Of a DNA stretch of 64,000 nt, positions 45,401-57,402 are shown piece after piece. Under the pieces are notes generated by a model, which ran no database searches, was not told the DNA's origin, and saw nothing but the letters and a program-made list of their open reading frames with translations. How positions within the stretch are numbered: position 1 is the first letter of the stretch; the number at the start of each line of letters is the position of its first letter. The position numbers and the translations under genes were made by a program. The DNA comes from Agelas oroides (lineage: Eukaryota > Porifera > Demospongiae > Agelasida > Agelasidae). The DNA lies in NCBI GenBank assembly GCA_949130485.1, contig OX422192.1, forward strand, positions 6,239,085 to 6,303,084. Reading direction: 5' to 3'.

Positions 45401-48400
45401 GCTCCTCGAACGTTTTCAGCTAAATTGCTCGGGAGTCTGTGGTATGGTCTGGAAATAATGATAGCTATTCCACTTTTGTACTATTGCATGGATGTCAAGA
45501 GCAACATGGCTCTCGACTGTTATTTCAAAGTGAATGCCTCCAGATTCCTGGAAGGCCACTTTTGGAAGTTCCTTCAATGTCCATTGCGCTTGTCAATGGG
45601 GAGGTGTCTCTGGCCTGAGACGCGTAATTGATGAAGTCCAACGAACGAAATCAAGAAGGCCCTATACGAGTCGAACTAAGACCTCATGCCAACATCAAAG
45701 CTACAACTTACACTCCTTAAACTTAAAATGTATACTGCTATCAGGGTGCAATTACACATAGATTAACCATTTAACAACCGATGATGCCGTTTGGCATCAT
45801 CAGTTTTTGTCCGCATGTTATCAGTTGGCGCAATCTGTTTTGAAGATAGGTTCTGCGCTAGCAGAAAGGGTGGGATAGGGTGACAGTGCATAGCGGCTGT
45901 TGTAGCTGCCTGTAGAAAAGCCCTGGTCAGTGCAAGGTGGGCCATTTGTCTGCCTTCTTGCCCAAATGGCATAGAAAATGCTCCTTGCTGGGCAGTGTCT
46001 GCACATCTTGTAGCTCTCCCTTCAGTCCAGATCCAGCAGTATCGGTCATAATCTGCTTTCAGGACACAAAAGGAATTATCTTAGCGCTTTCTTGTATGCC
46101 CAGAACTTCGGTGAGCACCTTGGAAACTCCAATTGTGGCAGGTCTCGGCAGGACCTCCACTGTAAACTGGTGACTGGCCAAACTTATTATCAGAGAGTCA
46201 TCACGTTAGACATAGTGATTAACATAATATTACATAATGTCTGAATTAATAAGAGTTTAGAGTTCAGCAATTAACAGTTCAGCATAGCCATGTTACACCT
46301 CAGCTATAAAAAAGCAATTAAAATGTAACGCCAGTTCCTACCAACATGCATATAACTTTCTGAGGCTTGCAACCTACACTTTGCATAAAGATGTTAGACA
46401 AATTATAACCTCATGCAAACATCAAAGAGCATGTTATGAACTTCAACACATACTGGAATGGTAGATTCACCCTATTTGTGCATCTTACTAATGGATGCAA
46501 TAATTTTATGTACTGTTTACTTGGATAATCTTGGTTCTTTGACTTACAGAGGCAAGGCCAATACATTTAACCTGAAGTACAGCTACAACTGTCAATCCTT
46601 AAACTTAAACTATACGAGTGCATTTGCATATACAGTAAATAGTGCAGTATAACTAACTTAGTTATCTGAGGGCTTATGCTCACAAACTATATAGCTTTGA
46701 TTGTAACAGAGATTTAATGTATGTAGTTGAGTTTACAGGAGTATTAATGATGGAATAGCATCCAGATTAGTAACATTTCTACCAGCATAAGGATATACAG
46801 AGGTTATCAAGTGAGGTGTAGGTTTCAACAACTGTGCCACGTCATTTCATGCGGATAGTGACACCTACCCTCTCCACTAATTTCATGCCATCTGCTCCTG
46901 CAAAATCTATCACTAGGGGACTGCTGCATTTAAATATAATCAGACTTTCCTAAGCTGAAGCCCTCTAACATTAGCAGATAGTGTTTTAGAATTATCCTGA
47001 ATGTGTATAGCCTCATTCTGGGCCTCCTCCATTTTGTACCCTTCAGTTTGTGCTCATAGTGATACACAGAAGTGGCAGACTTGCAATAAAAGTAGCAAAA
47101 TCTTATTTCTAATTTACCCCCTTTTCACTTTTGACATTGATGTCAGCTCCTTTATCAACCAGGCACCTAACTATATCCACATGATTGTGTAAAGCTGCCA
47201 CACATAGGGGAGTGTACTGATGGGGAGAATTAAAGAAAAAAGAAAACTTAAGCATGATAACATGTATCCTAGTACTTTATAATTCTAAATAAATCATTTC
47301 ACCTGTATGAATTGATTAGAGTAGTACTTCAAGAAGCGGGGGTTGTTGTAACAAATAGGTGTTGTGTTGTACAAAGAAACAGATTTGTGTAAGTTTTTGA
47401 CGCAAATACTGGTAATCATAGTTATCAAACCTCAGCAGCCCTTATGTAGAGCAATTAAAAATTAACTCCAGCTCCTACAAACATGTACAACTTACACTTT
47501 GCATAAAAATATCAGTCAACATCAAAGAGTGTGTTATCAATTTGGTATAGGTACTTCTTTAACCTCAGCTGCACATTATGTAAAACAGCAAGTAACAAGC
47601 AAGGCAATTCACACTTACACCTAACACAGTTACCTTAACACAACAATCTCTCACACAAATTATCATACCTTGACTGTAATGAACACTATGTGCTAATGTT
47701 CTAGTTATTAGGAACTGTAAGGATTAACGTGTCCTTATGTGACAGTCACAACAGCTGAATACTGCATTTAACTACCATATGCTGTGGGGGTTGATTTGCT
47801 TGCATGACTTTCATGCAGACTATTTAAAAAAGATAAGCAAATTATCTGGAAATAGTTATGTATTCATCAATGGACACAAAATTTTGTTAGATTACTGAGA
47901 ACAAAACTAACACAAAATCGCATTAGTGATTCACAGTCAAAGTGTAGTCTCATTAACTTACACCACTCTCATAATCTTTGATGTGGATGTCAGCTCCTTT
48001 GTCAAGAAGGCATTGTACTGCATTCACATGACCTTTAGATGCTGCCCAGTGGAGGGGAGTCAACTGATGAGGAGAATTAAAGCAACATTGAAAATAATGA
48101 TCTGGTAGTCTAGTATACAGCTGCTATTGTAACATGCAATAATGAAAGTAAACAGCTAACACGCATCCTCATACTGATTCAGGAATGGTAGTCAGTATAC
48201 AGTAGTTGTGCGCTGTATAAATGCACATACTAATTTTACATAAATTTTAGTTGACTTTAGGGGGCAATGCCAACAAATCCAACATGAAGTACAAGCTACA
48301 GCTGCCTACCCTTAAACTTGAAAAATACTGCTATCAGAGTGCATTTGCACATTCTGTAACAATTCCAGTATACCTATGTATGTACACGAGGGCTTACACT

Positions 48401-48723
48401 TGCTACTCTCACAAACTACAGCTTTGATTGTAATGGAGATTTATCAAGTGTGGCTGAGTCCAAAGAACTATCATTGAGTAGGGTAGTACATCAGAGAGTC
48501 GGTAGACTCTCTATGTAGGGATGGCGCCGACGCGCAATATATGCAATACTTAAGCAAAAGCCGTATAACTTCACCACAAACACGCTAAAAGCTTATTTAA
48601 AGCGCCCAGGCCTCCTCTTTAAGTGCCTTTGTGATCAGCAAGACTCATATAAGTGGCCAAAAGCCACGCGGAAGACAGCTAAACGAAAAAGGCTGCGGTC
48701 AAGAAAGTGCCATTTTTCGTATC

Positions 48724-48762
<39 letters not shown>

Positions 48763-49830
48763 GTTAAGACCACTATGTTCAACAACGATATCTCGCAAAC
48801 GGTTTAAGTACTCACCGTCATTTTAGCACGAAACTGATGCTTATCACAGCGCGGAGCTCTACGACCACTCAGCGTCTTCATAGCTTCAAATTCACCCTGG
48901 TCAACAAAAGCCATTCACAACTGCCTGAGGCGCTGTCCGTTGCTTAGGACGCCATTTTCTAATTTTGTACGCATGCGCACACGAAGTCTCGTTCCCAGAC
49001 CAAAGACCACGGTCATTGGTCTGGAAGCGAGACTAGTACACAAGCAAAAGGGCCAGCGGGCAGTACGCGTGGCTGACACTGTCTTTCCCCCCCGCGGCAT
49101 TGGGCAAGGCTTATGAACACCACGTAGGTAAGGCGCTACCTACTTGTAGCTACACTAAAAATAGTCTACTCACAGCATTAGTGAACTGTAAAGCTAGGAT
49201 GGTCAGTTGTCAGTATGATAGTTTTCTGTGCTGCAGCTGGTCAGTCGCCAAGACAACTGAATCATGAAATTTGTTTCACAAAGTTCGGTAGGGAGAGTGG
49301 TTGGCCCTTCATCAGGTTCTAGCTGGCTATATTACACATAATTATTACATTCCTGGAACCACTACTAAACTGTCAACGCCGTTTCAAAAGTTCTGGTGTT
49401 GCAGTTACACTTGAAATATCAGAGAGTCGGTAGACTCTCTATGTAGGGATGGCGCCGATGCGCAATATATGCAATACTTAAGCAAAAGCCGTATAACTTC
49501 ACCACAAATACACTAAAAGCTTATTTAAGCGCCCAGGCTTCCTTTTTGAGTGGCTTTGTGATCAGCAAGACTCATATAATTGCCCAAAAGCCACGCGGAT
49601 GACAGCTAAACGCAAAAGTGTGCGGTAGCAAAAGTGCCATTTTTCGTATTCTTTCTTCTTTCTTCTTTCTTCTTTCTTTGTTCAGACCACTTGTCAAACA
49701 ACGATAACTCGAAAACGGCTTAGGTACTCACCTTGATTTTAGCACGAAATTGATGCTCGTCAAAGCGCGCAGCTTCACAACCCCTCAGCGTCTTCATAGC
49801 TTCAAATTTACCCTGGTCAACAAAAGCCAT
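241..49830 (-). CDS. Gene A: one-repeat-per-exon ankyrin gene (gene-level entry)
   Basis: Gene model on the minus strand: first exon 49830-49732 or 48914-48816, then eighteen ANK exons between 48063 and 9991, then C-terminal exons 6637-6448 and 434-241. With one first exon and all others the coding length is 2274 bp including stop, about 757 aa. Every ANK exon is 99 or 102 bp and phase 0 at both ends, and the two C-terminal exons share a phase-1 junction, so the model stays in frame throughout. ANK repeats are protein-binding solenoids; no signal peptide, membrane segment or catalytic domain is seen. The ligand and role are unknown. Introns range from about 0.3 kb to 15.9 kb and are full of transposons. 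Which exons reach mRNA cannot be told from sequence. Confidence 0.75.
489..898. mobile_element. MULE-like MITE (TAGCCT.. ends, 9-bp TSD)
   Basis: Terminal inverted repeats: the left end reads TAGCCTTGTTCCCAGGCCTC and the right end, reversed, reads TAGCCTCGTTCCCAGGACTC. The repeat continues inward with the CCTTCC and TTCATAATAATAC motifs seen in many introns here. Flanks are GGCCAGAGT (480-488) and GCCCAGAGT (899-907), a 9-bp target duplication with one mismatch. A 9-bp duplication is typical of Mutator-like elements. No transposase is encoded. It lies in the last intron of gene A. Confidence 0.7.
1191..1222 (-). repeat. (TTCAAGG)n tail at LINE 3' end
   Basis: About four to five copies of the heptamer TTCAAGG lie just outside the 3' end of the LINE, which is on the minus strand. 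CR1/L2-type LINEs often end in short tandem repeats rather than poly(A), so this probably marks the element's 3' terminus. Confidence 0.65.
1258..2058 (-). pseudogene. LINE C-terminal domain (post-RT)
   Basis: A 266-residue open frame follows the RT region. Near its N terminus is the pattern VDSENWIVSG, and ELAKRALKWPRHFSNTA follows, a pattern I associate with invertebrate LINE polyproteins after the RT. Near the C terminus CPLCDE..HIGHLLRVH looks like a CCHH zinc finger, probably for RNA or DNA binding during target-primed reverse transcription. The frame is intact over this stretch but is no longer in frame with the RT. Confidence 0.7.
2219..3001 (-). pseudogene. LINE reverse transcriptase (frameshifted)
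   Basis: Three frames cover the RT. 3001-2675 carries VVVPVYKGSGKDP and ESYRGVTL (fingers motifs 1-2). About 2660-2530 carries CLYDLQKTFDLVEYP (motif A, one catalytic Asp). 2524-2219 carries GGVKQGSFLPPALF (motif B) and HADDIRIL (motif C, the ADD catalytic pair). The order is right for a LINE RT, but at least two frameshifts separate the pieces, so no full enzyme can be made. Confidence 0.85.
3034..3678 (-). pseudogene. LINE linker between endonuclease and RT
   Basis: Two minus-strand frames (3678-3454 and 3348-3034) fill the space between endonuclease and RT. They contain the pattern WARHFSNLAK, which in LINEs usually precedes the RT palm. No catalytic motif is expected here. The frame change between the two pieces is another sign of decay. 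Confidence 0.6.
3688..4775 (-). pseudogene. LINE APE-type endonuclease, interrupted by a SINE
   Basis: The N-terminal piece (4775-4527) has LTIGCWNCHG, the start of an exonuclease-endonuclease-phosphatase fold. The C-terminal piece (about 4260-3688) has VIGVYMPC, IILGDFNAH and TSDHLPLF, the metal-binding and catalytic GDFN and SDH motifs. The two are separated by the SINE at 4261-4526. This domain nicks target DNA in LINE retrotransposition. The copy is inactive because of the insertion. Confidence 0.85.
4261..4526 (+). mobile_element. tRNA-derived SINE with Nin-DC-like core
   Basis: The head resembles a tRNA. The A box is TGGCCTATTGGTTAAAGC (4271-4288), and the B box GGTTCCAGTCCC ends near 4327. 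The centre around 4402-4440 contains GTCCTTCGGAGGGGACGTTA and GCCGTCGGTCCCG, which resembles from memory the conserved Nin-DC core of eumetazoan SINEs. The 3' end is A-rich (AAATAAATAAAAATA). It lies in the LINE endonuclease on the opposite strand. A clear target duplication was not found. Confidence 0.7.
4901..5416 (-). pseudogene. LINE N-terminal / ORF1-like segment
   Basis: A 171-residue open frame starts MNLLPRFCVSGELSKEEF and is followed by a region rich in charged residues with possible coiled coil (SVINSLKSSTAEIKIDLHLL). It precedes the endonuclease in element order, so it is probably an ORF1-type or N-terminal domain. I do not recognise a motif that fixes its function. In-frame stops lie just upstream of the Met. 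Confidence 0.5.
5417..6447. other. Gene A last intron: upstream part
   Basis: No exon is seen. Apart from the inverted-repeat element at 5790-6172 and possible LINE 5' sequence near 5417-5570, the stretch has only short open frames on both strands with no recognisable motif. Confidence 0.6.
5790..6172. mobile_element. Short inverted-repeat element (MITE)
   Basis: AGGCCCTTCCAACTGGT and TTCCTGTTTCTGGTCC near 5791-5826 recur inverted at about 6136-6171, giving an arm of about 35 bp with few mismatches and some 310 bases between. No coding capacity and no clear target duplication. Family unknown. Confidence 0.6.
6448..6637 (-). CDS. Gene A penultimate coding exon
   Basis: A 190-bp exon: acceptor TGTAG before 6637, donor GTAAGAA after 6448. 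It opens in phase 0 with EELLKKLRKAIKEKDEVSF, a charged helix, then KRMKELLDGSLAYAAYTG and ends VETLIQKGG plus one base. That single base fits the two-base start of exon 241-434. The stretch SLAYAAYTGFQPAVETLIQK resembles a degenerate ANK helix pair, so this may be a capping repeat leading into the C-terminal domain. It follows the last typical ANK exon (9991-10089), whose phase-0 end matches. I assign no function. Confidence 0.7.
7121..7841. mobile_element. MITE with ACCCCGGAATATGCTGATGG termini
   Basis: Left arm 7121-7151 and right arm 7809-7841 are inverted copies sharing GGACCCCGGAATATGCTG. The internal 650 bp has no transposase. Near 7545-7600 the minus strand has a tRNA-like box (GGTAGCTCAGAGAGTG), so part of the element may derive from a SINE or tRNA. 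Confidence 0.6.
8915..9353. mobile_element. Degenerate Tc1/pogo-like element
   Basis: The left end reads CAGTGGAATCCCTCTAGAG, a common Tc1/mariner/pogo-type terminus. The right end reversed reads ACACCCCTCAACAGTGGATA, which matches in the CCCTC..AGTGGA core only. The centre is a perfect hairpin (9130-9196). No transposase seen; the boundary call is tentative. Confidence 0.4.
9130..9196. repeat. Perfect 31-bp inverted repeat, 5-base loop
   Basis: Arms 9130-9160 and 9166-9196 are exact inverted copies beginning CTCCAATAGCGATTGTGG, with loop CCTTT. A perfect palindrome this long in otherwise decayed DNA implies recent formation or conversion. Confidence 0.95.
9991..10089 (-). CDS. Gene A ANK exon 18 (last typical repeat)
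   Basis: A 99-bp, 33-codon exon with acceptor CATCAG and donor GTAAGTG. It reads YTPLNLAVRA, then HVDTVRYLVDKGAD and ends IKIKDDNG. TPLN replaces the usual TPLH/TPLC, and Tyr replaces the Cys of VRCL. It is the most diverged of the 33-residue repeats, as expected for a terminal repeat. A plus-strand A-run (10104-10120) lies just upstream in the intron. Confidence 0.85.
10090..12272. other. Gene A intron
   Basis: No exon seen. Contains unit-type intron sequence near 11390-11640. Open frames at 10531-10890 (plus) and 10558-10761 (minus) overlap each other and have no motif. Confidence 0.6.
12273..12371 (-). CDS. Gene A ANK exon 17
   Basis: 99 bp, phase 0-0, donor GTAAGAA, acceptor AAACAG. One ANK repeat: YTPLCVAAANNHVDT, VRCLVDKGAD, INVKDEKG. 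It matches the array consensus except for an extra Ala before NNH. The acceptor sequence differs from the CATCAG of most copies but keeps AG. Confidence 0.9.
13396..13494 (-). CDS. Gene A ANK exon 16
   Basis: 99 bp, phase 0-0, donor GTAAGAG, acceptor CCTTAG. Repeat: YTPLYGAAVNNHVDT, VRCLVDKGAD, INVKDQKG. Its block (about 13.24-14.08 kb, with the next exon) is nearly the same as 21.35-22.86 kb, so exon pairs 16/15 and 10/9 come from one segmental duplication. Confidence 0.9.
13945..14046 (-). CDS. Gene A ANK exon 15 (34-residue type)
   Basis: 102 bp, 34 codons, phase 0-0, donor GTAAGTG. Repeat: LTPLHWAASKGHVNAVQ, CLLDKGADIHIKDDENG. The TPLHWAA start is the canonical ANK signature. The extra residue is the second Asp of the IKDDENG tail. 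The same repeat type recurs in exons 9 and 1 of this gene. Confidence 0.9.
14108..14437. mobile_element. Foldback MITE, copy 1
   Basis: The left arm reads TTCAACGAGCGCTCGAGACA and the right arm reversed reads TTCAACGTGCGCTCGAGACG. Both continue through GCCTT.TTGA, AGCACTGGTTG and GCTCACTAT, giving an arm of about 70-85 bp. A second copy lies at 37133-37457. No coding capacity. Confidence 0.7.
15307..15405 (-). CDS. Gene A ANK exon 14 (variant)
   Basis: 99 bp, phase 0-0, donor GTAATAG (a weaker +5 than the usual GTAAG). Repeat: RAPLCLAALNNHVDT, IGRLVYKGAD, INVKDKNG. Two departures are Ala for Thr in TPL and Tyr for Asp in LVDKGAD. The frame is open and splice sites have GT and AG, but weak conservation suggests relaxed constraint. 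Exon 8 (38691) is the closest relative. Confidence 0.8.
16388..16486 (-). CDS. Gene A ANK exon 13
   Basis: 99 bp, phase 0-0, donor GTAAGAG, acceptor TCTCATCAG. Repeat: RTPLCVAALLNHVDT, VRCLVDKGAD, INVKDEKG. Close to the array consensus, with Leu for Asn before NHV. Confidence 0.9.
17384..17482 (-). CDS. Gene A ANK exon 12
   Basis: 99 bp, phase 0-0, donor GTAAAGG, acceptor CATCAG. Repeat: HTPLFAGALHNHVDT, VRCLVDEGAD, INVKDENG. Gly replaces the second Ala of the first helix and Glu replaces Lys in VDKG. Relatives are exons 6 and 3 (40074, 44948). Confidence 0.88.
17755..18703. mobile_element. TA-flanked MITE (CAGTGCTCCAAAGC termini)
   Basis: Left end CAGTGCTCCAAAGCAAGAG, right end reversed CAGTGCTCCAAAGCAAAAG, then GCAAAACTTT in both. 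Flanking TA at 17753-17754 and 18704-18705; the paralogous intron at 41551-41570 shows the empty site with a single TA. A Tc1/mariner-type insertion of 949 bp without a recognisable transposase. Rearranged relatives lie near 28560-29170 and 35540-35905. Confidence 0.8.
18731..19729. mobile_element. MITE (CCRTATAG..GCGCTA family), copy with insertion
   Basis: Left end CCGTATAGCACCCAAATTTC after TA. The right end carries the complement of CGCCAAATTTTTGAGGGAC near 19706-19726. Relatives are 41585-42086 and 45344-45668. This copy is split by the hAT-like element 18873-19383. Right boundary approximate. No transposase seen. Confidence 0.65.
18873..19383. mobile_element. hAT-like MITE with 5-bp TSD, nested
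   Basis: Left end CAGAGCCGGAGCCAG, right end reversed CAGGGCCGGCGGCAA. The flanks repeat CTTTT (18868-18872 and 19384-19388). The paralogue at 41727-41745 lacks the insert and has CTTTT once. CAGRGCCGG ends with a 5-bp duplication suggest the hAT superfamily. 511 bp, non-coding. Confidence 0.75.
19745..20836. other. Gene A intron, duplicated at 43.0-43.9 kb
   Basis: No exon seen. From about 20000 to 20836 it is nearly the same as 43080-43919, including TCACATCAAACAGACCTGTG. This is one of the clearest segmental duplications in the array. Confidence 0.75.
20837..20935 (-). pseudogene. Gene A ANK exon 11, damaged donor
   Basis: A 99-bp ANK repeat (CTPLCVAALNNHVDT, VRCLVDKGAH, INVKDEKG) followed on the minus strand by GGTGGGAG instead of GTAAGAG. 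One extra G precedes the GT, so use of that GT would shift the frame, and the +3 to +5 positions do not fit a donor. His replaces the Asp of GAD. It is probably skipped, which keeps the frame because the exon is 99 bp. Confidence 0.7.
21500..21598 (-). CDS. Gene A ANK exon 10
   Basis: 99 bp, phase 0-0, donor GTAAGAG, acceptor CATTAG. Repeat: YTPLYGAAVNNHVDT, VRCLVDKGAD, MNVKDEKG. It differs from its duplicate (exon 16, 13396) by Met for Ile and Glu for Gln. Confidence 0.9.
21832..22521. mobile_element. TA-flanked MITE (GCGTACGGTCCCC termini)
   Basis: Left end GCGTACGGTCCCCTATTATG. The right end reversed is the same, followed by a second copy of CCCCTATTATGGCCA. TA at 21830-21831 and 22522-22523. 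The duplicate block at 13.7 kb has the uninterrupted AAGTAACAAGC, so this 690-bp element inserted after the segmental duplication. Non-coding, Tc1/mariner-like. Confidence 0.88.
22725..22826 (-). CDS. Gene A ANK exon 9 (34-residue type)
   Basis: 102 bp, phase 0-0, donor GTAAGTG, acceptor CATCAG. Repeat: LTPLYWAASKGHVNAVQ, CLLDKGADIHIKDDENG. Differs from exon 15 by Tyr for His in TPLHW. The intron before it in the transcript is the largest (15.9 kb) and carries the big transposon nest and the DIRS-like element. Confidence 0.9.
23333..25835. repeat. Long inverted repeat (about 200-230 bp arms)
   Basis: 23333-23540 recurs inverted at about 25605-25835. Shared words include GGGATCGTCTAAGTTCACA, CGCATAATCGCGATAACCCT and AGCATGCATTCAGAGAGTAT. 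About 2.05 kb lies between, with only unrecognised short frames. It may be a separate foldback element inside the 23013-28202 transposon. Confidence 0.75.
26057..26152. repeat. Near-perfect 31-bp inverted repeat
   Basis: Arms 26057-26087 and 26122-26152 (TATTTGATG.GTGAGAGGGC) are inverted with one mismatch, with a 34-base loop. Possibly a tiny MITE or structure-forming palindrome. Confidence 0.8.
26884..28002 (+). pseudogene. RecQ-like DNA helicase fragment, split by an insertion
   Basis: From ATG 26884 the frame reads MAGKSEDFDKALK, FTLKAEQLDAIKCICDGKDV and WLPTGFGKSICYE, the RecQ-type motif 0 region and Walker A motif I. It runs on to PFVFNCKHSD near 27092. After the inserted element (about 27108-27935) another frame at 27946-28002 reads VVLVVSPLVSLIMEA, the motif Ia region that normally follows, and ends in a stop. 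RecQ helicases unwind DNA 3' to 5', but only the first part of lobe 1 is here, so no activity is expected. Confidence 0.85.
27108..27935. mobile_element. Inverted-repeat element inside the RecQ fragment
   Basis: GGTGTCACAGCGGATCCGAT at the left and the complement of GGTGTCACAGGAAATCCGAT at the right. Subterminal copies of GGATCCGATCC and CCGCTAGCG occur near both ends. It separates helicase motif I from motif Ia. No transposase seen and no clear target duplication. Confidence 0.65.
28430..28774. repeat. Perfect 50-bp inverted repeat (foldback)
   Basis: Arms 28430-28479 and 28725-28774 match base for base when inverted (CATGTTTTCTGAATGGGG...), with 245 bp between. The spacer carries GTATATATATATATAC and sequence of the 17755-18703 family. 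An identical pair implies recent formation. Confidence 0.9.
28560..29180. mobile_element. Rearranged relative of the 17755-18703 MITE
   Basis: GCAAAAGAGCAAAACTTTCA, GGAATGCCCACCC and ACTAAAATGGCTGAAAGTTA match parts of the 17755-18703 element, but in altered order and orientation. Boundaries are not clear. Confidence 0.5.
29386..29849 (+). repeat. Exact 232-bp tandem duplication
   Basis: 29386-29617 and 29618-29849 appear identical by eye, each starting TAGGGGGATAGTAAAACACC and ending CTTCTTCGCAGGG. A diverged inverted copy lies at about 35310-35530. The unit is open in one frame (ELAMSLDP, DLPELVK, VDFFAG) and precedes the gag-like frame, so it may be an end repeat of the DIRS-like element. 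An assembly artefact is possible. Confidence 0.85.
30169..30984 (+). pseudogene. DIRS-like gag protein (ORF1)
   Basis: A 271-codon open frame. It has KRQVTSILEWVQCFGIYIAV, LLGYQALIIEAHMEY, ARIDPTLWNMAFTGQAKAK, and a C-terminal cysteine/histidine cluster beginning ICYAWN and continuing C..PGCRYQHICLQC, a zinc-knuckle-like pattern typical of DIRS gag proteins. The true start is unclear, since the overlapping frame 29577-30389 also runs in. It may be near intact, but its partner genes are dead. Confidence 0.65.
31131..31400 (+). mobile_element. Internal fragment of the TTAACAAC-ended family
   Basis: CAGTGCATGGCGGCTGTTG, ATGGCCCATTCTTCTGC and TTTCACCTTGTACGGACTCC match the left half of 42233-42952. 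The part GGGCCTGGTCAGCACTGGAT is present twice, at about 31097-31146 and 31187-31235. The TIR end is missing. Confidence 0.65.
31557..32508. mobile_element. Inverted-repeat element of unknown family
   Basis: GGTAGGACAACCTTGAA at 31557-31573 and its exact complement at 32492-32508 bracket 952 bp without a recognisable product. TTAA precedes the left end, and TTAA follows the right end after one extra base, so a TTAA target site is possible but not proven. Confidence 0.6.
32976..33496. mobile_element. hAT-like MITE with 5-bp TSD inside the RT
   Basis: Left end CAAGGCCGTAGACAAG, right end reversed CAGGGCCGTAGACAAG, followed in both by GGGGGTGC. Flanks CACTC at 32971-32975 and 33497-33501. Without the insert the RT frame runs on across the site, which supports these exact ends. 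Contains the nested element 33052-33412. Confidence 0.8.
33052..33412. mobile_element. TA-flanked MITE nested in the hAT-like MITE
   Basis: Ends CCGTAGATCGGGA and TCCCGATCTACGG with TA on both sides (33050-33051, 33413-33414). 361 bp. Subterminal ATTTTCACGTTAAAA resembles common Tc1/mariner MITEs. Non-coding. Confidence 0.85.
34532..34661 (-). mobile_element. Right-end fragment of the TTAACAAC-ended family
   Basis: GGTGCACCCACCCACCTCCC through ATCGGTTGTTAA matches the right arm of 42233-42952. Only about 130 bp is present, inserted between RNase H and recombinase remains of the DIRS-like element. Confidence 0.75.
34675..34858 (+). pseudogene. Tyrosine recombinase C terminus, catalytic Arg lost
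   Basis: The frame reads NMHSF, a stop, IGAAPTAKDAGISDIHIKML, then GHWKSNAYQ. Tyrosine recombinases have HxxR followed by a nucleophilic Tyr. Here His is at 34704-34706, and the Arg position holds TGA (34713-34715), one C-to-T step from CGA. The Tyr of NAYQ remains. The rest of the enzyme is missing. Confidence 0.75.
34860..35100. other. DIRS-like 3' region
   Basis: No coding signal. Contains GGAGGGAAAGGCTC and the inverted-type pair TGAGGAGCCC / GGGCCTCA. Probably non-coding 3' part of the element. Confidence 0.4.
35310..35530 (-). repeat. Inverted, diverged copy of the 232-bp repeat
   Basis: On the minus strand it reads GTTGAACGCAGAGGTC and TCTGGTGTACCCAGCGAGC, ending TCGACTTCTTCGCAGGG, matching 29386-29849 with roughly one change in eight to ten bases. 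Taken as the inverted right end of the DIRS-like element. Confidence 0.65.
35900..36110 (-). mobile_element. Repeat carrying a 'CKAIGRNFN' peptide frame, copy 1
   Basis: The minus strand reads MHCKAIGRNFNSDDEFFHDT and later YDYHLELLQ. Related frames occur at 51898-52137 and about 60590-60790. In the last two copies the unit follows TGTAGGGATGGCCCAGTTTT. Possibly an eroded transposon exon; the family is not recognised. Confidence 0.5.
36120..37130. other. Intron/repeat spacer, nothing assigned
   Basis: No exon, RNA or clear repeat end was found. A short stretch near 36850-36900 (TTAGCCTCATACCAGGCTCC with a partial complement) may be a small decayed TAGCCTC-type MITE. Confidence 0.5.
37133..37457. 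mobile_element. Foldback MITE, copy 2
   Basis: Same family as 14108-14437: left arm GTTCAGTTCAACGAGTGCTC, right arm reversed GTTCAGTTCAAGTGTGCTTG. Sequence after the element (CAGAAGTCTAGGT, TGATGGTCAAGTATTTCAA) also matches 14430-14780, so the element was carried in a larger duplicated block. Confidence 0.7.
38085..38160 (-). other. tRNA-like sequence (SINE head or tRNA pseudogene)
   Basis: The minus strand has an A-box-like TGGCTCAGAAGGTAGAGC, a D stem GCTC/GAGC, an anticodon arm TCAGT-GTACTAA-GCTGA (anticodon ACT) and a B-box-like GTTCAAGTCCC. The T stem and acceptor stem do not pair, so it is not a working tRNA. Flanking 60-bp segments at 37884-37942 and 38215-38280 are direct repeats. 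Confidence 0.5.
38691..38789 (-). CDS. Gene A ANK exon 8
   Basis: 99 bp, phase 0-0, donor GTAAGAG, acceptor CTCATCAG. Repeat: RAPLCVAALNNHVDT, IGCLVDKGAD, INVKDKNG. Shares RAPL and DTIG with exon 14. It is the first ANK exon upstream of the 15.9-kb transposon-filled intron. Confidence 0.88.
39098..39196 (-). CDS. Gene A ANK exon 7
   Basis: 99 bp, phase 0-0, donor GTAAGAG. Repeat: CTPLCVAALKNHVDT, VRCLVDKGAD, INFKDEKG. The INFK variant (Phe for Val) is shared only with exon 4 (43920), evidence that those two blocks are a recent duplication. The intron to exon 8 is only about 0.3 kb, the smallest here. Confidence 0.9.
40074..40172 (-). CDS. Gene A ANK exon 6
   Basis: 99 bp, phase 0-0, donor GTAAGCG, acceptor CATCAG. 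Repeat: HTPLFAAALNNHVDT, VRCLVDKGAD, INVKDENG. Nearly the same as exon 3 (44948), which however ends in Glu. Confidence 0.9.
41189..41287 (-). CDS. Gene A ANK exon 5
   Basis: 99 bp, phase 0-0, donor GTAAGAG, acceptor CATCAG. Repeat: RTPLFAAALNNHVDT, VRCLVDKGAD, INVKDEKG. It combines the TPLFAA start of exons 3 and 6 with the DEKG end of others, which suggests recombination or conversion between units. Confidence 0.9.
41585..42086. mobile_element. MITE (CCATATAG..GCGCTA family), uninterrupted copy
   Basis: Left end CCATATAGTGCCAAATTTTC, right end reversed CCACATAGCGCCAAATTTTT; TA on both sides (41583-41584 and 42087-42088). Units without it read CAACATGCATGTTTGG at this point. 502 bp. Internal frames on both strands have no recognised motif. 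Confidence 0.75.
42233..42952. mobile_element. Long-TIR element (TTAACAAC ends), full copy
   Basis: Left end TTAACAACTGATGATG, right end reversed TTAACAACCGATGACTCC. The arms of about 240 bp each continue inward through AGTTGGC.CAATC, GAAGATAGGTTCTGCGCTAG and GGCGGCTGTTG. The central 150-200 bp is unique. 720 bp, no transposase. Fragments lie at 31131, 34532, 45771 and, diverged, about 9360-9660. Confidence 0.8.
43920..44018 (-). CDS. Gene A ANK exon 4
   Basis: 99 bp, phase 0-0, donor GTAAGAG. Repeat: CTPLCVAALNNHVDT, VRCLVDKGAD, INFKDEKG. Flanking DNA combines the 20.0-20.95 kb block on the left with the 39.1-39.3 kb block on the right, as if a crossover fell at the exon. Confidence 0.9.
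44948..45046 (-). CDS. Gene A ANK exon 3, Gly-to-Glu at the donor
   Basis: 99 bp, phase 0-0, donor GTAAGCG. Repeat: HTPLFAAALNNHVDT, VRCLVDKGAD, INVKDENE. The last codon is GAG (Glu) where other repeats have Gly, a structural residue in the ANK beta-hairpin loop. The same change puts A at -2 and keeps G at -1, so splicing should remain possible. Confidence 0.87.
45344..45668. mobile_element. MITE (CCATATAG family), 3'-truncated copy
   Basis: Starts CCATATAGTACCAAATTTTC after TA and follows 41585-42086 until about 45668, where CCTATACGAG joins unit intron sequence (TCGAACTAAGACC). The right end is deleted. Confidence 0.65.
45771..45985. mobile_element. Left-end fragment of the TTAACAAC-ended family
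   Basis: Matches the left arm of 42233-42952 (TTAACAACCGATGATGCCG, GAAGATAGGTTCTGCGCTAG, CATAGAAAATGCTCCTT), then stops. Confidence 0.75.
45986..46200. other. Unassigned unique stretch
   Basis: Not seen elsewhere in the window. The minus strand is open over about 35 codons (QFTVEVLPRPATIG, VLTEVLGIQES) with no splice support. It may be a captured exon piece or element core. Confidence 0.3.
47118..47216 (-). CDS. Gene A ANK exon 2
   Basis: 99 bp, phase 0-0, donor GTAAATT (weaker than GTAAG). Repeat: YTPLCVAALHNHVDI, VRCLVDKGAD, INVKSEKG. Ser replaces the usual Asp of VKDE through a small rearrangement of the codons, but the frame is kept. Confidence 0.85.
47962..48063 (-). CDS. Gene A ANK exon 1 (34-residue type)
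   Basis: 102 bp, phase 0-0, donor GTAAGTT, acceptor CATCAG. Repeat: LTPLHWAASKGHVNAVQ, CLLDKGADIHIKDYESG. It is the first ANK exon after the two candidate first exons, and its phase-0 start matches their phase-0 ends. Confidence 0.88.
48722..48762 (+). repeat. (TTTC)n microsatellite
   Basis: About ten copies of TTTC lie in the first intron of gene A. The paralogous position in the second copy (49651-49680) has an irregular TTC/TTTC run. Confidence 0.95.
48816..48914 (-). CDS. Gene A first coding exon, proximal copy
   Basis: The ATG at 48914-48912 opens 33 codons, MAFVDQGEFEAMKTL to HQFRAKMT, and ends in phase 0 at donor GTGAGTA. No ANK motif and no signal peptide are seen. The second copy at 49732-49830 agrees at 24 of 33 residues, with the differences clustered in the middle. 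Upstream (48968-48983) is GCATGCGC, an NRF1-like element common in metazoan CpG promoters. Matching phase with ANK exon 1 supports it as the gene start. Confidence 0.7.
48915..49130 (-). promoter_or_regulatory. Putative promoter, proximal copy
   Basis: Upstream of ATG 48914 the DNA is richer in CpG than its surroundings and holds ACGCATGCGCAC (NRF1-like) and GTCTCGTTCCCAGACC with its inverted partner. No TATA box was seen. The call is inferred from position. Confidence 0.4.
49732..49830 (-). CDS. Gene A first coding exon, distal copy
   Basis: The ATG at 49830-49828 opens 33 codons, MAFVDQGKFEAMKTL to HQFRAKIK, ending in phase 0 at a good donor, AAG|GTGAGT. Conservation of start, length, phase and donor with the proximal copy suggests that both are usable alternative first exons. 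It lies about 0.92 kb upstream of the other and is followed by its own intron microsatellite. Confidence 0.65.
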
Positions 49831-50439
49831 TCACAACACTCTGAGGCTGTTGTCTGTTGCTTAGGACGCCATTTTCTAATTTTGTACGCATGTGCACACG
49901 AAGTCTCGTTCCCAGACCCAAGATCACGTTTTTATACTGGAAACATTCAAAAACTGGAGGCGGGAACGGCCTGGGAACAAGGCTCTACGCATGGCTGGCA
50001 CGGTCTTTCCCCCACGGCATTGGGCAAGGCTTATGAACACCACGTAGGTAAGGGGCTGCATTCAGCTGCCTACTTGTAGCTACACTAAAAGTAGCCTACT
50101 CACAACTTTAGTGAACTGTCAAGCTAGGATGGTCAGTTATCTACTTTTCTGTGCTGCAGCTGGTCAGTCGTCATGTGCCTTTGACAACTGAATCATGAAA
50201 CTGGTTTCACAAAGTTCGGTAGGGAGAGTGGTTGGCCCTTCATCAGGTACTAGCTGGCTATATTACACATAATTATTAAATGCCTGGAACCACTACTAAA
50301 CTGTCAACGCCGTTTCAAGTTCTGGTGTTGTGGTTACACTTGAAATATTCTTCTTAGGCTTAGGTCTAACTGTAACTGAGATTAACATCAAAAAAGTACA
50401 GAAACAAGACTTTAAAAACATTAAAAATGTAAAAATAAT

Positions 50440-50528
50440 GTAGGGATGGCATGCCAAAAAGTATGCAAACAAGGTAGGGATAATGCATGAAAGCAAATGT
50501 CAACATATTGGCAAAGCCCCATCCCTAC
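50440..50528 (+). mobile_element. 89-bp MITE (GTAGGGATGG ends), copy 1
   Basis: Starts GTAGGGATGGCATGCC and ends GGCAAAGCCCCATCCCTAC, so the TIR is GTAGGGATGG. The left flank is AAAAATGTAAAAATAAT and the right flank CTTTTTCACACTGCAG. Confidence 0.85.
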
Positions 50529-51134
50529 ATCTTTTTCACACTGCAGTTAGACAGCGTGCTTGAGTTGAGAGCTGAATCTGCAGCCATCCATGCAGCTATT
50601 AATGCTGTGCATGAGTACTTGAGTTTTACACACTGATTATAATGATCAGTCTGCAGGCCACTCAAGCTCAGTGTCTAGGTTATGCCAGAGACATATAACA
50701 ATGGTGCCACTGTCACGGCAAAAAAAAATACTAACCTTGGTAGCTACCTACAAGGCACACATATCTATACAGCTGATGCTAGATCATGTCATGGCCACGT
50801 GGGAGGAGGAAAGTGGCCTCAGGATGAGGCTAAAACCATGCCATGCGCCATGAACTTTTACTATGATAACTCCGCAGTCTACTCCAAGTCACTGCTTAAG
50901 TTGTTTTAAGAGGTTTCGTATAACACAATGCTACCAAGTGTACCACTATAAACTACCTGGTACCTACCAACGAGGCGTGGATCATACCAGCCTCATTCCC
51001 AGGCCATGTGGGAGGAGCTAGGAAGTGGCCTGAGAACGAGGCTACAACCATGAACTGCCAGTAACGGTTGGAGTGAACTTGTGGTACGTTTTAGGAAGCC
51101 CCCATGCACTGTCTAACTGCAGTGTGAAAGTGAT

Positions 51135-51223
51135 GTAGGGATGGGGCTTTGTCAATATGTTGACCTTTGCTTTCATGCATTATCCCTACCTTGTTTGCAT
51201 ACTTTTTGGCATGCCATTCCTAC
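51135..51223 (-). mobile_element. 89-bp MITE, copy 2 (inverted)
   Basis: Same length and ends as copy 1, in opposite orientation. Flanks are also shared and inverted (CTGCAGTGTGAAAGTGAT), so a larger block was duplicated. Confidence 0.85.
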
Positions 51224-51279
51224 ATCTTTATACATTTTTAATGTTTTTAAAGTCTTTTCTTCTTAGGCTTAGGTCTAAC

Positions 51280-51368
51280 TAGCCTCGTTCCCAGGCCCCG
51301 CCCAGCTTTCCGTCGCTTGCAGTTCGATTTTTCGATCCGCGCGCGGGGAGAGCCTGGGAACGAGGCTA
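51280..51368. mobile_element. Minimal MULE-like MITE with exact 9-bp TSD
   Basis: TAGCCTCGTTCCCAGGC at the left and its exact complement at the right enclose about 55 bp. Target duplication AGGTCTAAC at 51271-51279 and 51369-51377. The paralogous site near 50360 has AGGTCTAAC once, an empty site. Confidence 0.92.
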
Positions 51369-51447
51369 AGGTCTAACTGTAACTGAGATTAACACCAAAA
51401 AAGTACAGAAACAAGACTTAAAAAAAACATTAAAAATGTAAAAAGAT

Positions 51448-51536
51448 GTAGGGATGGCATGCCAAAAAGTATGCAAACAAGGTAGGGATAATGCATGAAA
51501 GTAAAGGTCAACATATTGGCAAAGCCCCATCCCTAC
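51448..51536 (+). mobile_element. 89-bp MITE, copy 3
   Basis: Same as copy 1 with few changes; flanks AAAAATGTAAAAAGAT and CTTTTTCACACT match copy 1. Confidence 0.85.
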
Positions 51537-51736
51537 ATCTTTTTCACACTACTGCAATGCTGCTAGATCATATTAGCCTCGTTCCTGAGCCAACATGTGG
51601 GAGAAGGAATGTGGCCTGGGGACGAGGTTAAAACCATGCCATGTACTTTAACGACACTATCATAAGTAATAAAGGTTGTGAACTTGTGGTATGTTTTAGG
51701 AAGACCCCCATGCACTAACTGTAGTGTGAAAAATAT

Positions 51737-51825
51737 GTAGGGATGGGGCTTTGCCAATATGTTGACCTATGCTTTCATGCATTATCCCTACCTTGTTTGC
51801 ATACTTTTTGGCATGCCATCCCTAC
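51737..51825 (-). mobile_element. 89-bp MITE, copy 4 (inverted)
   Basis: Opposite orientation to copy 3, again 89 bp. After it, at 51863, another element with TGTAGGGATGGCCC begins, so the shared end sequence recurs next to it. Confidence 0.85.
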
Positions 51826-51862
51826 ATCTTTTTACATTTGAATGTTTTTTAAGTCTTTCATA

Positions 51863-52200
51863 TGTAGGGATGGCCCAGTTTTTAAATGGCCGCTACATTA
51901 AAAGTGCACAAATGACATGCTCAAAAAGTCGGCTATAGATAGCAAGTCTAAATGATATTCATAACAGTAAAATGTGTACCACTGTTTTTGGAGGGGTAGT
52001 GCATTATTGAATGTGGTACTGTAGTATGTGTTATGCAAGAACCCATCCTCACAGTTGAAATTTCGGCCAATAGCCTTACAACGCATATCAAATTGAAGTG
52101 CGTTGGTTCTTCTCTTCAGTTCAGCTGGTAAGAACATACATTTGTAAAAAATCTTACCTGTATGTTTGTGTTTTAGCCACCTTTCACAAGTTTCACTGAA
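51863..52200 (-). mobile_element. GTAGGGATGGCCC repeat with CKAIGRNFN frame, copy 2
   Basis: Begins TGTAGGGATGGCCCAGTTTT. The minus strand then reads MRCKAIGRNFNCEDGFLHNT and CYEYHLDLLSI. Relatives at 35900-36110, 56857-57060, 58377-58590 and 60485-60830. No known domain. Confidence 0.55.
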
Positions 52201-53860
52201 CTTTCAAGATATATGCAGCCCTTACCATGGGAAAGACGTTTCTTGGAGTGCAAACTTCATTAATGTGTTGTTAAAATAGTCACACTACAGTGGACATTCC
52301 AAGAGGTCGTCACTCCAATACAGTCATTTGTTTCTTGTACCAAGCTAATCTCAGAAACAAACAATCCACTCCGGGCTGTATACTGACATAGAAATGTACA
52401 TGCTTTTGTTTGTGGCAGTGGGTTCATTTATATTTGCAATAAAGTAGAAAATGTGAAACCCACAATTGGAGCTGCTGGAATAAATGTTTAGGCCCACAGA
52501 ATGGTCGAAGAAAAGAAGGGAGTGTTCATAGTTACTAAGAAGATGGAATATCAACAGATTTGTGGACACAAATGAACGATAAGTGACTAGGCTGAATTAC
52601 GGGAATACCGATAGTTGGACCAGCTGTCTATATTTAGTATTGCTAGGCTTTTTTAAAACTTTGCTTCAATTTCTGGCCATGGGAGTTGACTATTATTATT
52701 ATTAGTATTATTATTAAAAATGTAATTCACACCACAAAACAAGGTGTACAGATGAAGAATTAGAGTGCAATACCACTAAGTAATATACATAAATTAGGAT
52801 TGCTATTTGCATGAAGCAGCACATACAATCATATTAAGCATGTTCTGATCAAAGCCATAAATAAAAAGACTATTGTCTCTAATCTCCCTGATTAGATTAA
52901 CAACCGAAAGATTTCCACAACTGTAGTTATGAACAAAATCGGAGCCATGCTTAAGGTGGCGGCGGAAGTCACTCGGCGGAGGTTAACGAAAACATAAACC
53001 TGGGTTACAGTATTGACATTCTGTTGAAACATTGGCAGCTTGGCTTGGGGTTGAAAGGAATGGGTAAATGGTGATGAATATTTATGAGTATGCCCTAACC
53101 CTTTCATGGACTCAAACCCAACAGAATAGGGATATGAATCTCATTAACCCTCCTTGGATACTTGTGAATGTTGTTAATGTCCCAATTGAGAACAATGAAT
53201 CCCATTAAAGGCATGTATAATTCCGGCTGGAAGGCGGGCAATCTCTCCCCTCATGCATACTAATACTTGAATTTTGCTAGCTCTGTGTGGCACCCCTAGG
53301 CAACATTCCGTTCATTGGTCCTCACGAATATGATTAGTGGTGTCATGTTTCTTCTGTGGTAGCACTGGATTGGGTTGACTTGACAAAGTAGCATGTGAAA
53401 TATTCATAGCTTCAGTTATGTGTGGCATCTTAAGGTGGCAGAGAACCCTGTTACTTTCAAGGTCGACAAACCTGGAATCCAAGCTGATAGACTTCTTCAT
53501 ATGGATCCAGCGCTACTCACCTCATGTAACAAGTCAACCCCACCTCTCTCCTACCACCATCTAACGATTGACACATGCAAGCAGAAACAACAACACGGAC
53601 TACCAGCGTGCCAGAAGCCACACCCACCAGCCCTCGCAGATCGAGAACCGCTCAACTCGCTGCAACAGAAGTCCACACTGGCTACATTGCACGCGAAGAG
53701 GACTGTTTGGAGAGTGGCTACTGGAGAGAGCTGCCAAGTCCTGCCGCCATCAAGCCTGCTGCCAAAATGTATTCGTGTAGCGTCTGTATTGCGTAGGACG
53801 CTTGACATCACACGCCAAGTTGTATTAGCGTGTATATATTTCCTGCATGTATGCATTTTG

Positions 53861-53922
53861 TACACTGCATGCACCTGATGAGGCCCACTTAGGCCGAAAC
53901 CGTGGTCGTGCATTTGTGTGTA
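53861..53922 (+). ncRNA. Type I hammerhead ribozyme
   Basis: All core elements are present: CTGATGA (53875-53881), stem II GGCC/GGCC with loop CACTTA (53882-53895), GAAA (53896-53899), then a short stem III, ACC-GT-GGT (53899-53906), and the cleavage base C53907. Stem I pairs TGCAC (53870-53874) with GTGCA (53908-53912), and beyond a small internal loop TACAC pairs with GTGTG/A. Short stem III and an open stem I are typical of hammerheads in Penelope-like elements and retrozymes. Self-cleavage is predicted between 53907 and 53908. Confidence 0.85.
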
Positions 53923-54574
53923 TTAAAAATCAATTTTTGAAACACCTGGAAGTGTGGGAAGATTTCGAAGACCTCGCGGTTCACTCCTCTGTCTACTGTT
54001 CCCAAAATCTATGTTTGTATTTTAGACCTATGTATTTAGACATGGCTTAAGAAAGTGTTTGACAACTGTGGTTGTCTCGTTCTGTAACTTTTCTTACAGT
54101 TTCCGTGTGAGCCAAAGTTAAGATTGAATAATTTGATAGTAGCTTGACATTTACATGCTATGCAAGCAGACTGCATTACAGCAAGGACAGGTGTAGGGCA
54201 ATGAAATTTCAACCTTGATTTCATTGCCTTGAACTTGTTGGTTCAAAGATGCAGAGGAGTAAACATAATAGTATTCAGGTGGTAGCCTTATAATTGGGAT
54301 GAGTCTGAGGAAGCCTAGTTATCCTTTTGAGATTAACTAAATGTGTCACAACTACATACATGTGAGTCTGCTCAACTTCAAAAATGCATTAGTGCACTGT
54401 GCAGAAGTGCACAGCACCCTCCTCGCTAACTATAAAACCAATTGTTTACTGTAAATTAACATTCTCTGAAGGACTGGAGCAGCCAAAAACTTTTATAAGA
54501 TGACTGGAAACAAGACAAACACAACACTCACAGTAGTGATTCCCATTCAGCAGTGTAGTGTGTCATTCACTTAC

Positions 54575-54676
54575 CCCTTTCTTATCATCTTTGATGTTGA
54601 TGTCAGCTCCTTTGTCAACAAGGCATTGCAATGTGTCCACATGACCTTTAAGTGCTGCCCAGTGTAGGGCAGTCAT
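54575..54676 (-). CDS. Cluster B ANK exon (34-residue type), most 3'
   Basis: 102 bp, phase 0-0, donor GTAAGTG, acceptor CATCAG. Repeat: MTALHWAALKGHVDTLQ, CLVDKGADINIKDDKKG. TALH replaces TPLH, a feature of all 34-residue repeats in cluster B. No exon of this cluster is seen downstream of it. Confidence 0.87.
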
Positions 54677-55257
54677 CTGATGAGGAGAAGGAAACAAACT
54701 TGAACATAGTTTACTAAAATTGCTATTTAGTCTATGTATCTAGAGCTACGAAGAAGCCCCACACACAAGAAAAGACTCACTCAGTAAGCTGTGATTGGTT
54801 GGTAAAGAAATTTAAAGAGCTAACACAGACTGGGATAACACTCCTTCGAACAGGCATACAGAAGACGTGACAGTGATCCTATAACTTTGAGGTCATCAAG
54901 TGCTAAGTGAAAACTTCAACAGCCATGAAGGCATAGCACTGTCATGTGGATGTGACACTACTCCCTCACTTCTGTCCCTACTCCCTCCCTCACTCCCTCC
55001 CTCTTACTAGGTGACTGCTGAATGTAAATACAGCCATACTCTGTTAAACTTGAGCCCACTCCACATTAGCAGACAGTGACAACAGCTGAGTATGTGGGTT
55101 AATTTCCAAGTACACTATTTATTTCAAGATAAACTATTTAGCAATGGTAATGCATTTATCAACAATGGATACAAAAACGTTTGGTGAGTATCTGGGAACA
55201 AGACTAACAAACTTGCAGTAGTGATTCACAGTCAGCAGTGCAGTCTCATTCACTTAC

Positions 55258-55356
55258 CCCCTCATTATCGTTGATGTGGATGTCAGCTCCTTTGTCAAGA
55301 AGGTATCGTATTGTATCCACATGACCTTTTACAGCTGCCTTGAATAGGGGAGTCCT
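55258..55356 (-). CDS. Cluster B ANK exon
   Basis: 99 bp, phase 0-0, donor GTAAGTG. Repeat: RTPLFKAAVKGHVDT, IRYLLDKGAD, IHINDNEG. Asn for Lys in the IHIND tail is unusual, but the frame and splice sites are sound. Confidence 0.87.
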
Positions 55357-55426
55357 CTGATGAGAATCAAAATTGAACAAGATGGCCAGGTAGCTTAGTA
55401 TACAGTTCTTTTCGTAGTTGGTAATA

Positions 55427-55823
55427 CCGTAATCTCTCAAAAATATGCCCATGGGCGATGAACTTAAGTGGCTCCCAAAAGATGGGATTTCGAGAGTTGT
55501 GATATTTATCTCGAAAATACACCCACCTCACACGCAGTTAGTCTAGCCCTTGTTACGTATTTCTGCATGCAGTGATTCTGCAATGCCTCTTTTGTCATGC
55601 GCTTGCTTACACAGTAACAGCAAATGGTGTCTGCCTTCATTTGTTAGTCCCTCCTCTTGCACAGTGCTGCTTCTTCGGTGCTTTTTGCTTAACATAATAG
55701 TGTGTACTGCGGCATAAATGAGTGGGTGTACTTTCGAGAGAATAGAACCCCTTGCAACAACTTCATTCAAAAAAGTGGGGTGGGCGTATTTTCGAGGGTG
55801 GGCTTATTTTCGGGAGATTACGG
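55427..55823. mobile_element. TA-flanked MITE (CCGTAATCTC ends)
   Basis: Left end CCGTAATCTCTCAAAAATA, right end reversed CCGTAATCTCCCGAAAATA; TA at 55425-55426 and 55824-55825. 397 bp. Similar in style to 33052-33412. Confidence 0.82.
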
Positions 55824-57402
55824 TAATTAAACTAATTCAGCAAAACGTGATGTGCTGATAATACTCTCAGCATTCACAATAAAAGCAATGTGAACAGCCA
55901 GCAAGCATCCCCACACAGATTCTGGAATGGTAGTTTTACACTAGTTGTGCACGGTATAAATGCATGCACTACTTTTATTCACTGTTGTATTGGTAAATTT
56001 TAGGGGGGCAATGCCAACACATCCAACATGAAGTACAAAACTATCCTTAAACTTGAAAACTATATACTGCAATCAGAGTGCATTTGCACATTCTGCATCA
56101 AGTCCAGTATAGCTACCTACATATGTGCATGAGGGCTTACACTTGGTACCCTCACATGTTACAGCTTTGATTGTGACATAGAGTTATAACATGTGGTTGT
56201 GTTTCAGGCCCGTAGGCAGGGGTGGTTCGAGGGGGTTTCCTCGAACCTCCCTTTTGACCTCCAAAAGATTTTATATACACTGCTTAACTGTATATTGTAA
56301 GTGCCCTACTGGTAAAGGTTTGAAAGTGGTCCACTAGTCTCACTGCTACTGAGAATCACCGCTGTCAAAAGGAGTTTGGTTGCAGCTATGCGAGTTTGCT
56401 CATGAAGGGTTAGCGCGGAACATGAGCGTAAGTTGTTTGTGCCGATGCAATGAAAGGACGTGCGTAAATACGTGCATAAATAAATCGCTAGTTCAGGCTC
56501 TCGAGAGGTTCCTTCTAGTGATGTCACCCCACCTGTTTTTCTGCCAACCTTAGTACCTTCTCTCATGGATATTCGAAGTAAGCTGGCTTTAATAGCAAAT
56601 GCATACATGGACAGCCAAAAATTGGATGCAATACTCTGCAAGCATGTAGCTATTATGACTCTGCTCCTGTCCCAAAATGGCCTCAGAAGCAATCTCAGAG
56701 GATCTAACTTCTAAAAATTTCCTGGGAAAACATGCCCCCAGACCACCTAGTCTTGCATACTTATGCATGCATACATACAAATCAGACATCCATGTAAACC
56801 CCCTTCTAAAAATTCTGCCTATGGGCCTGTGTTTAAAGAACTATCAGCAGTACACTATATGTAGGGATGGCCTGGTATTTAAATGGCCTCTACATTAAAA
56901 AGTGCTCAAATGACGCTCAAAACGTCAGCTATACATAGCAAGTCCAGATGATATTCATAACAGAAAAAAGTGCACTAAGTTTTTGGACCAGAAGTGACGT
57001 GTTGAACGTGGCACCGTTGTATGTGACATGCAATAAACATCCTCACAGTTGAAATTTGTTAAGTGAAAGTTTCAACAGCCAGGCCTTGTGCTGCCATATG
57101 GATGGTGACACTAATCCATCCCTTGTTTTATGCCTTCTCCTCTTGCGAAACCTATCACTAGGAGACTGCTGATTAAGCATACAGCCATACTCTGTTAAAC
57201 AGGAGCCAGTTCCATATTTGTAGGTAGTGTGTAAAAATGGGTTGATTTGCTTGCCAAACTTCCATGCAGACTAGTAAATTATCTCGAAATGGTTATGCAT
57301 TCATCAACAATGGATACATAAACTTTTGTTGCGTGAGTAGGAACAAGACTAACAAACTCACAGCAGTGATTCACAGTCAGCAATGTAGTCTCAGTCACCT
57401 AC
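55824..57402. other. Cluster B intron
   Basis: No exon. 56200-56860 is a unique insert bounded by GGCCCGTAGGCAGGGGTGG and ATTCTGCCTATGGGCC, which are inverted-like ends (CATAGGCAGAAT versus CGTAGGCAGGGG), suggesting a decayed hAT-like element. A GTAGGGATGGCC repeat follows at 56857. Confidence 0.5.

Follow-up and report, generated by a model that had tools for sequence, protein, structure and literature searches.

Genomic surroundings

The window, that is, the whole stretch of 64,000 bases analysed here, looks like part of an intron-rich animal genome, to judge from its minus-strand ankyrin exons and retrotransposon fragments. Minus-strand matches to an ankyrin-repeat regular expression recur from 10086 to 63995, except in a gap from 22.8 to 38.7 kb, and a lone plus-strand match lies at 61803; each exon seems to hold roughly one repeat, and the intron sequence around the exons is repetitive. 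Between two of these exons, on the plus strand, lies a hammerhead ribozyme motif, in the following setting:

47947-54700, minus strand: interval between ankyrin-repeat exons at about 47947-48087 and about 54560-54700, with the ribozyme on the opposite strand
52427-54417, no strand assigned: stretch that occurs once in the window; blastn against the window otherwise gave only chance-length matches

Because the ribozyme is on the plus strand between minus-strand ankyrin exons, it probably lies antisense within an intron of an ankyrin gene, if both exons belong to one gene, as we infer. One frame of this kind was submitted to Pfam, which confirmed ankyrin in the next exon (55246-55527, minus strand). 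Short sequences beside ankyrin exons (e.g., at 48064, 54677, and 63523) that read CTGATGAG resemble half of a hammerhead core; by eye they were read as reverse-complemented splice acceptors of the minus strand and set aside.

The roughly 2-kb stretch that holds the ribozyme is bounded on its left by a repeat in common with 35900-36463, which stops at 52426, and on its right by repeated intron sequence that begins at 54418. The surrounding region is rich in other repeats, and GC content is 41% in 52001-56000.

Traces of mobile DNA occur elsewhere in the window. A LINE-type retrotransposon endonuclease domain (Pfam Exo_endo_phos_2) is encoded at 3688-4281 on the minus strand, and the frame at 2675-3064 resembles a reverse transcriptase (RT) by eye, with no Pfam match. 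The plus-strand frame at 33789-34574, which may belong to a DIRS-like element, is RT-like and scores 29.5 bits against Pfam RVT_1, just below the cutoff of 29.6. Four inverted-repeat pairs at 50412-51850 (119-143 bp, 88-95% complementary, with ends like TGTAGGGATGGC) look like small inverted-repeat transposons. A perfect tandem duplication at 29385-29849 (232-bp unit, 2.0 copies, 100% matches) overlaps the open frame 29571-30389.

A complete-looking type I hammerhead

When the whole window was scanned with cmscan against 4227 Rfam families at gathering thresholds, the sole match was to Hammerhead_1 (RF00163), at 53869-53913 on the plus strand, with 40.9 bits against a gathering score of 34, an E-value of 5.6e-7 for the whole window, and coverage of model positions 1-45 of 45. 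All 14 consensus pairs of the model are standard in the motif: nine are identical to the consensus, five are changed on both sides, and none is broken. The parts of the motif, all on the plus strand, are as follows:

53859-53865: outer stem I, 5' strand TGTACAC, seven pairs with 53916-53922, two of them G-U; also in the HH9 alignment
53866-53868: stem I internal loop, 5' side TGC
53869-53874: inner stem I, 5' strand ATGCAC, six pairs with 53908-53913
53875-53881: conserved core CTGATGA
53882-53895: stem II GGCC/GGCC, four pairs (53882-53885 with 53892-53895), with the 6-nt loop CACTTA
53896-53899: conserved core GAAA, with A15.1 at 53899
53899-53906: ACCGTGGT, the stem III octet, which is self-complementary and includes two G-U pairs
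53907: C17
53907/53908: predicted cleavage site, 3' of C17, placed by the Hammerhead_1 alignment
53908-53913: inner stem I, 3' strand GTGCAT
53914-53915: stem I internal loop, 3' side TT
53916-53922: outer stem I, 3' strand GTGTGTA

Two of the defining features of type I are present in the sequence, namely a core of the form CUGANGA...GAAA...UH with predicted cleavage after H17 and three helices with an open-ended stem I (the 14 model pairs together with outer stem I). Comparison with the model confirms that 53859-53922 encodes a complete-looking type I hammerhead, for which self-cleavage is predicted. An initial annotation had described a complete type I hammerhead and proposed a covariance-model search as a check; the description is borne out by the score above gathering, the full model length, and the pairing, and the predicted cleavage position agrees with the one it gave, 53907/53908. 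Its start at 53861 was two bases short, as outer stem I begins at 53859. It had also called stem III minimal, which holds only in part; in length and in its four model pairs, the octet is as in the Rfam type I consensus, although its closing pair is a G-U.

Under looser thresholds, applied to 40000-64000 (E up to 1) and to 53820-53960, Hammerhead_1 is outranked by HH9 (RF02275), a model that we take to represent the amniote intronic hammerhead family. HH9 aligns end to end at 53857-53930 (model positions 1-77 of 77) and reaches 44.5 bits, where its gathering score is 52. The two alignments place the core and stems I and II alike and in the same register; the stem III loop of HH9 is longer, and three of its positions are deleted in the motif. 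A mir-393 match in 40000-64000 was discarded as sub-threshold (28.4 bits against 60), and one overlapping clan match was omitted.

The exact conserved core occurs once in the window. With up to two mismatches there are two matches, one of them the exact one, and shuffled windows contain 1.33 on average (two or more in 36 of 100 shuffles), so the core alone is weak evidence. The significance of the motif is carried by its pairing and its full model score rather than by the core.

Folding and pairing between copies

Energy folding by itself lends weak support to the hammerhead. Relative to shuffled sequences, z is -2.29 for the 62-nt motif, -2.05 for 76 nt, and -0.77 for the 45-nt core, and in the minimum-energy folds part of the core is paired otherwise than in the active form. 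Of the predicted 72-nt ensemble, structures with full stem I and stem II account for 0.02%, and those with inner stem I and stem II for 1.2%. The method itself explains the low share of the active form at least in part, because Rfam consensus strings are likewise predicted to pair inside their own cores and because, in an identical ensemble calculation, the Hammerhead_1 consensus reaches 51% and the 45-nt core 47%.

In the monomer, the stem III octet would form about two pairs and a tetraloop; weak activity as a monomer and better activity as a dimer are therefore a reasonable expectation. Two copies of the octet ACCGUGGU are predicted to pair as an 8-bp duplex at -7.4 kcal/mol, against -13.3 for the consensus octet. 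The predicted two-copy fold, at -45.4 kcal/mol, is not the active form, in a program that cannot represent the crossing pairs of an active dimer.

Search for an element around the ribozyme

Retrozyme repeat structure, in which tandem units of 150-450 bp each carry a hammerhead, was not found in the window. There is no second hammerhead at gathering score in the 64 kb and none at E ≤ 1 in 40000-64000. A degenerate core scan of 50900-57000 gave a second core-like site at 52888, which has one core mismatch and three of four stem II pairs and is not credible. No array covering the motif was reported by Tandem Repeats Finder. When 53800-54000 was aligned locally to its flanks of about 900 bp each, in both orientations, no diverged repeat emerged beside the motif: the left and right scores were equalled in 25 and 66 of 100 shuffles for direct repeats and in 99 and 34 of 100 for inverted ones. 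Throughout 52300-54600, direct and inverted pairs are short and weak only.

Target-site duplications of retrozymes, when present, are larger than 4 bp. The candidates here are exact direct repeats of 11 and 9 bp that bracket the ribozyme, and these are at chance level, with repeats of at least 11 bp in 12.7% of 300 shuffles and two or more pairs in 52%. The stretches that they bound have unremarkable self-pairing (z of -1.12 and -1.26). For comparison, 20 random 300-mers had a mean z of -0.64, a standard deviation of 0.98, and a lowest value of -2.55; among 12 sliding 300-nt windows, 53300-53599 (-2.76) and 54000-54299 (-2.56) fall slightly below that lowest value, and 53600-53899 stands at -2.03.

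Protein-level searches covered 248 open reading frames of at least 60 aa. None contains a GIY-YIG-like motif by regular expression, nor a match to an RT expression, the latter a weak pattern that also missed the near-threshold RT frame at 33789-34574. Pfam covered ten frames, comprising 8 of the 32 of at least 120 aa plus two shorter ones. A 159-aa open frame (53399-53878) runs into the ribozyme; neither it nor a neighboring 74-aa frame has a Pfam match.

Interpretation and alternatives

The motif is most likely a solitary, canonical animal type I hammerhead that a non-LTR retrozyme-type element left behind, either as a relic or by inserting one unit, a reading to which we assign a probability of roughly 0.6. 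Several observations point this way: the full-length Hammerhead_1 match, with 5 of 14 pairs changed on both sides; the 6-nt loop II and stem I internal loop, which match canonical animal motifs; a self-complementary octet that could join two copies through an 8-bp duplex; GC content in line with GC-poor animal elements; and the position of the motif in a stretch not repeated elsewhere in the window, within a repeat-rich region. Such elements also hold most classical type I motifs of animal genomes, according to excerpts of PMC7229834. Counting against it are the window's lack of a second hammerhead, tandem array, diverged repeat, or above-chance target-site duplication, the small share of active stems in the 72-nt ensemble, and candidate inserts that are not unusually self-paired. 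The repeat structure could exist elsewhere in the genome, or the motif may be a single-unit insertion with decayed ends. The initial annotation offered an orphan or a retrozyme-like copy, and this is also the best reading here, though the repeats expected of a retrozyme were not found in the window.

Any transcript of the plus strand would be expected to fold so that loop contacts bring stems I and II together, and to cleave itself 3' of C53907; the ends produced would be a 2',3'-cyclic phosphate and a 5'-hydroxyl. On the model outlined in PMC7229834 and PMC7761336, an intact element would be cut twice, one repeat apart, to release a monomer, which would be ligated to a circle, reverse-transcribed by the enzyme of another element, and reinserted. 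A retained function is possible; nothing here requires it.

It is unlikely that the ribozyme comes instead from a truncated Penelope-like element and lies in its pseudo-LTR. Excerpts of PMC7761336 do describe type I hammerheads conserved in Penelope-like elements and most of the minimal type I motifs as dispersed over non-coding parts of animal genomes. Hammerheads of Penelope and Terminon elements are, however, given there as minimal variants without helix III or loop-loop contacts, whereas this motif has an 8-nt stem III and loops I and II, so that the Penelope link is weaker than initially stated. The 248 frames yielded no GIY-YIG-like motif by regular expression, the two frames adjoining the ribozyme have no Pfam match, and the RT expression, weak as it is, came back empty.

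An orphan or domesticated ribozyme, once mobile and now regulatory in an antisense or independent transcript, is improbable on the whole. The motif is alone in the window, keeps all 14 model pairs intact, and is probably intronic; HH9 aligns with it end to end, and hammerheads are found in introns of amniotes (PMC6155905, in the sections seen). Lying on the strand opposite the ankyrin exons, however, it would be absent from that pre-mRNA, and the HH9 score is below gathering. A more particular version is a long shot: a single intact hammerhead under selection in a transcript antisense to an invertebrate ankyrin gene, which would parallel, independently, the domestication of intronic hammerheads in amniotes.

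Quite improbable, too, is that 52427-54417 contains some unrecognised element or gene to which the motif belongs; it might, for example, lie in the untranslated end of a transcript from the plus strand that includes the frame 53399-53878. That frame does enter the ribozyme, and two of the 300-nt windows fold slightly better than the lowest random one, but Pfam recognised neither adjoining frame and the direct and inverted pairs of 52300-54600 are only short and weak. Chance resemblance is negligible: shuffled windows hold on average about 1.3 cores with up to two mismatches, but the E-value of 5.6e-7 holds against the whole Rfam library and every model pair is standard.

Animal type I hammerheads are well described, and one more is modest news. 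The segment may have value as a seed: if the host genome has tandem copies, it marks a retrozyme family there; should it prove both conserved and without any other copy, it would exemplify domestication beyond the amniotes.

Comparison with known hammerheads

Pattern scans of viral contigs gave a single match, in contig L001, where a hammerhead-like core (CTGATGAG, a 4-bp stem II, and CGAAAC) lies at 14212-14237. It was rejected as a relative, with no gathering-level Rfam match and frames that are tailed-phage-like by eye. The pattern scan of genome contigs gave no match. Silence of viral and prokaryotic collections says little on animal relatives. Full-text literature searches for this ribozyme with sponge terms returned nothing beyond one review of RECK.

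Compared with the Rfam type I model, the motif has the same core and three stems, with a loop II and a stem III as long as those of the model; it differs in 5 of 14 pairs and in the middle of loop II, which reads CACUUA here and CAAAUA in the consensus. With HH9 it shares alignment from the first to the last model position, outer stem I included; it differs in scoring below that family's gathering threshold and in lying on the opposite strand of the surrounding exons.

Excerpts of four papers (PMC7761336, PMC7229834, PMC6155905, and PMC4918200) set canonical type I motifs, with loop-loop contacts and housed in small animal tandem repeats, against the minimal motifs of Penelope-like elements. 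With the latter this motif has type I topology in common; it differs in its 8-nt stem III, and a limited search found no Penelope protein here. Relative to the metazoan non-LTR retrozymes, as excerpted from PMC7229834, the window differs in having neither tandem repeats nor a target-site duplication above chance, and the likenesses are a type I ribozyme in which stems I and II both carry loops, a weak self-complementary stem III, and GC-poor surroundings. As far as its sequence can tell, the motif fits the canonical animal form in its consensus-length stem III, 6-nt loop II, and stem I internal loop. It is a well-formed type I hammerhead, one more of a well-described animal kind, and resembles those of the non-LTR retrozymes more than it does the minimal hammerheads of Penelope-like elements.
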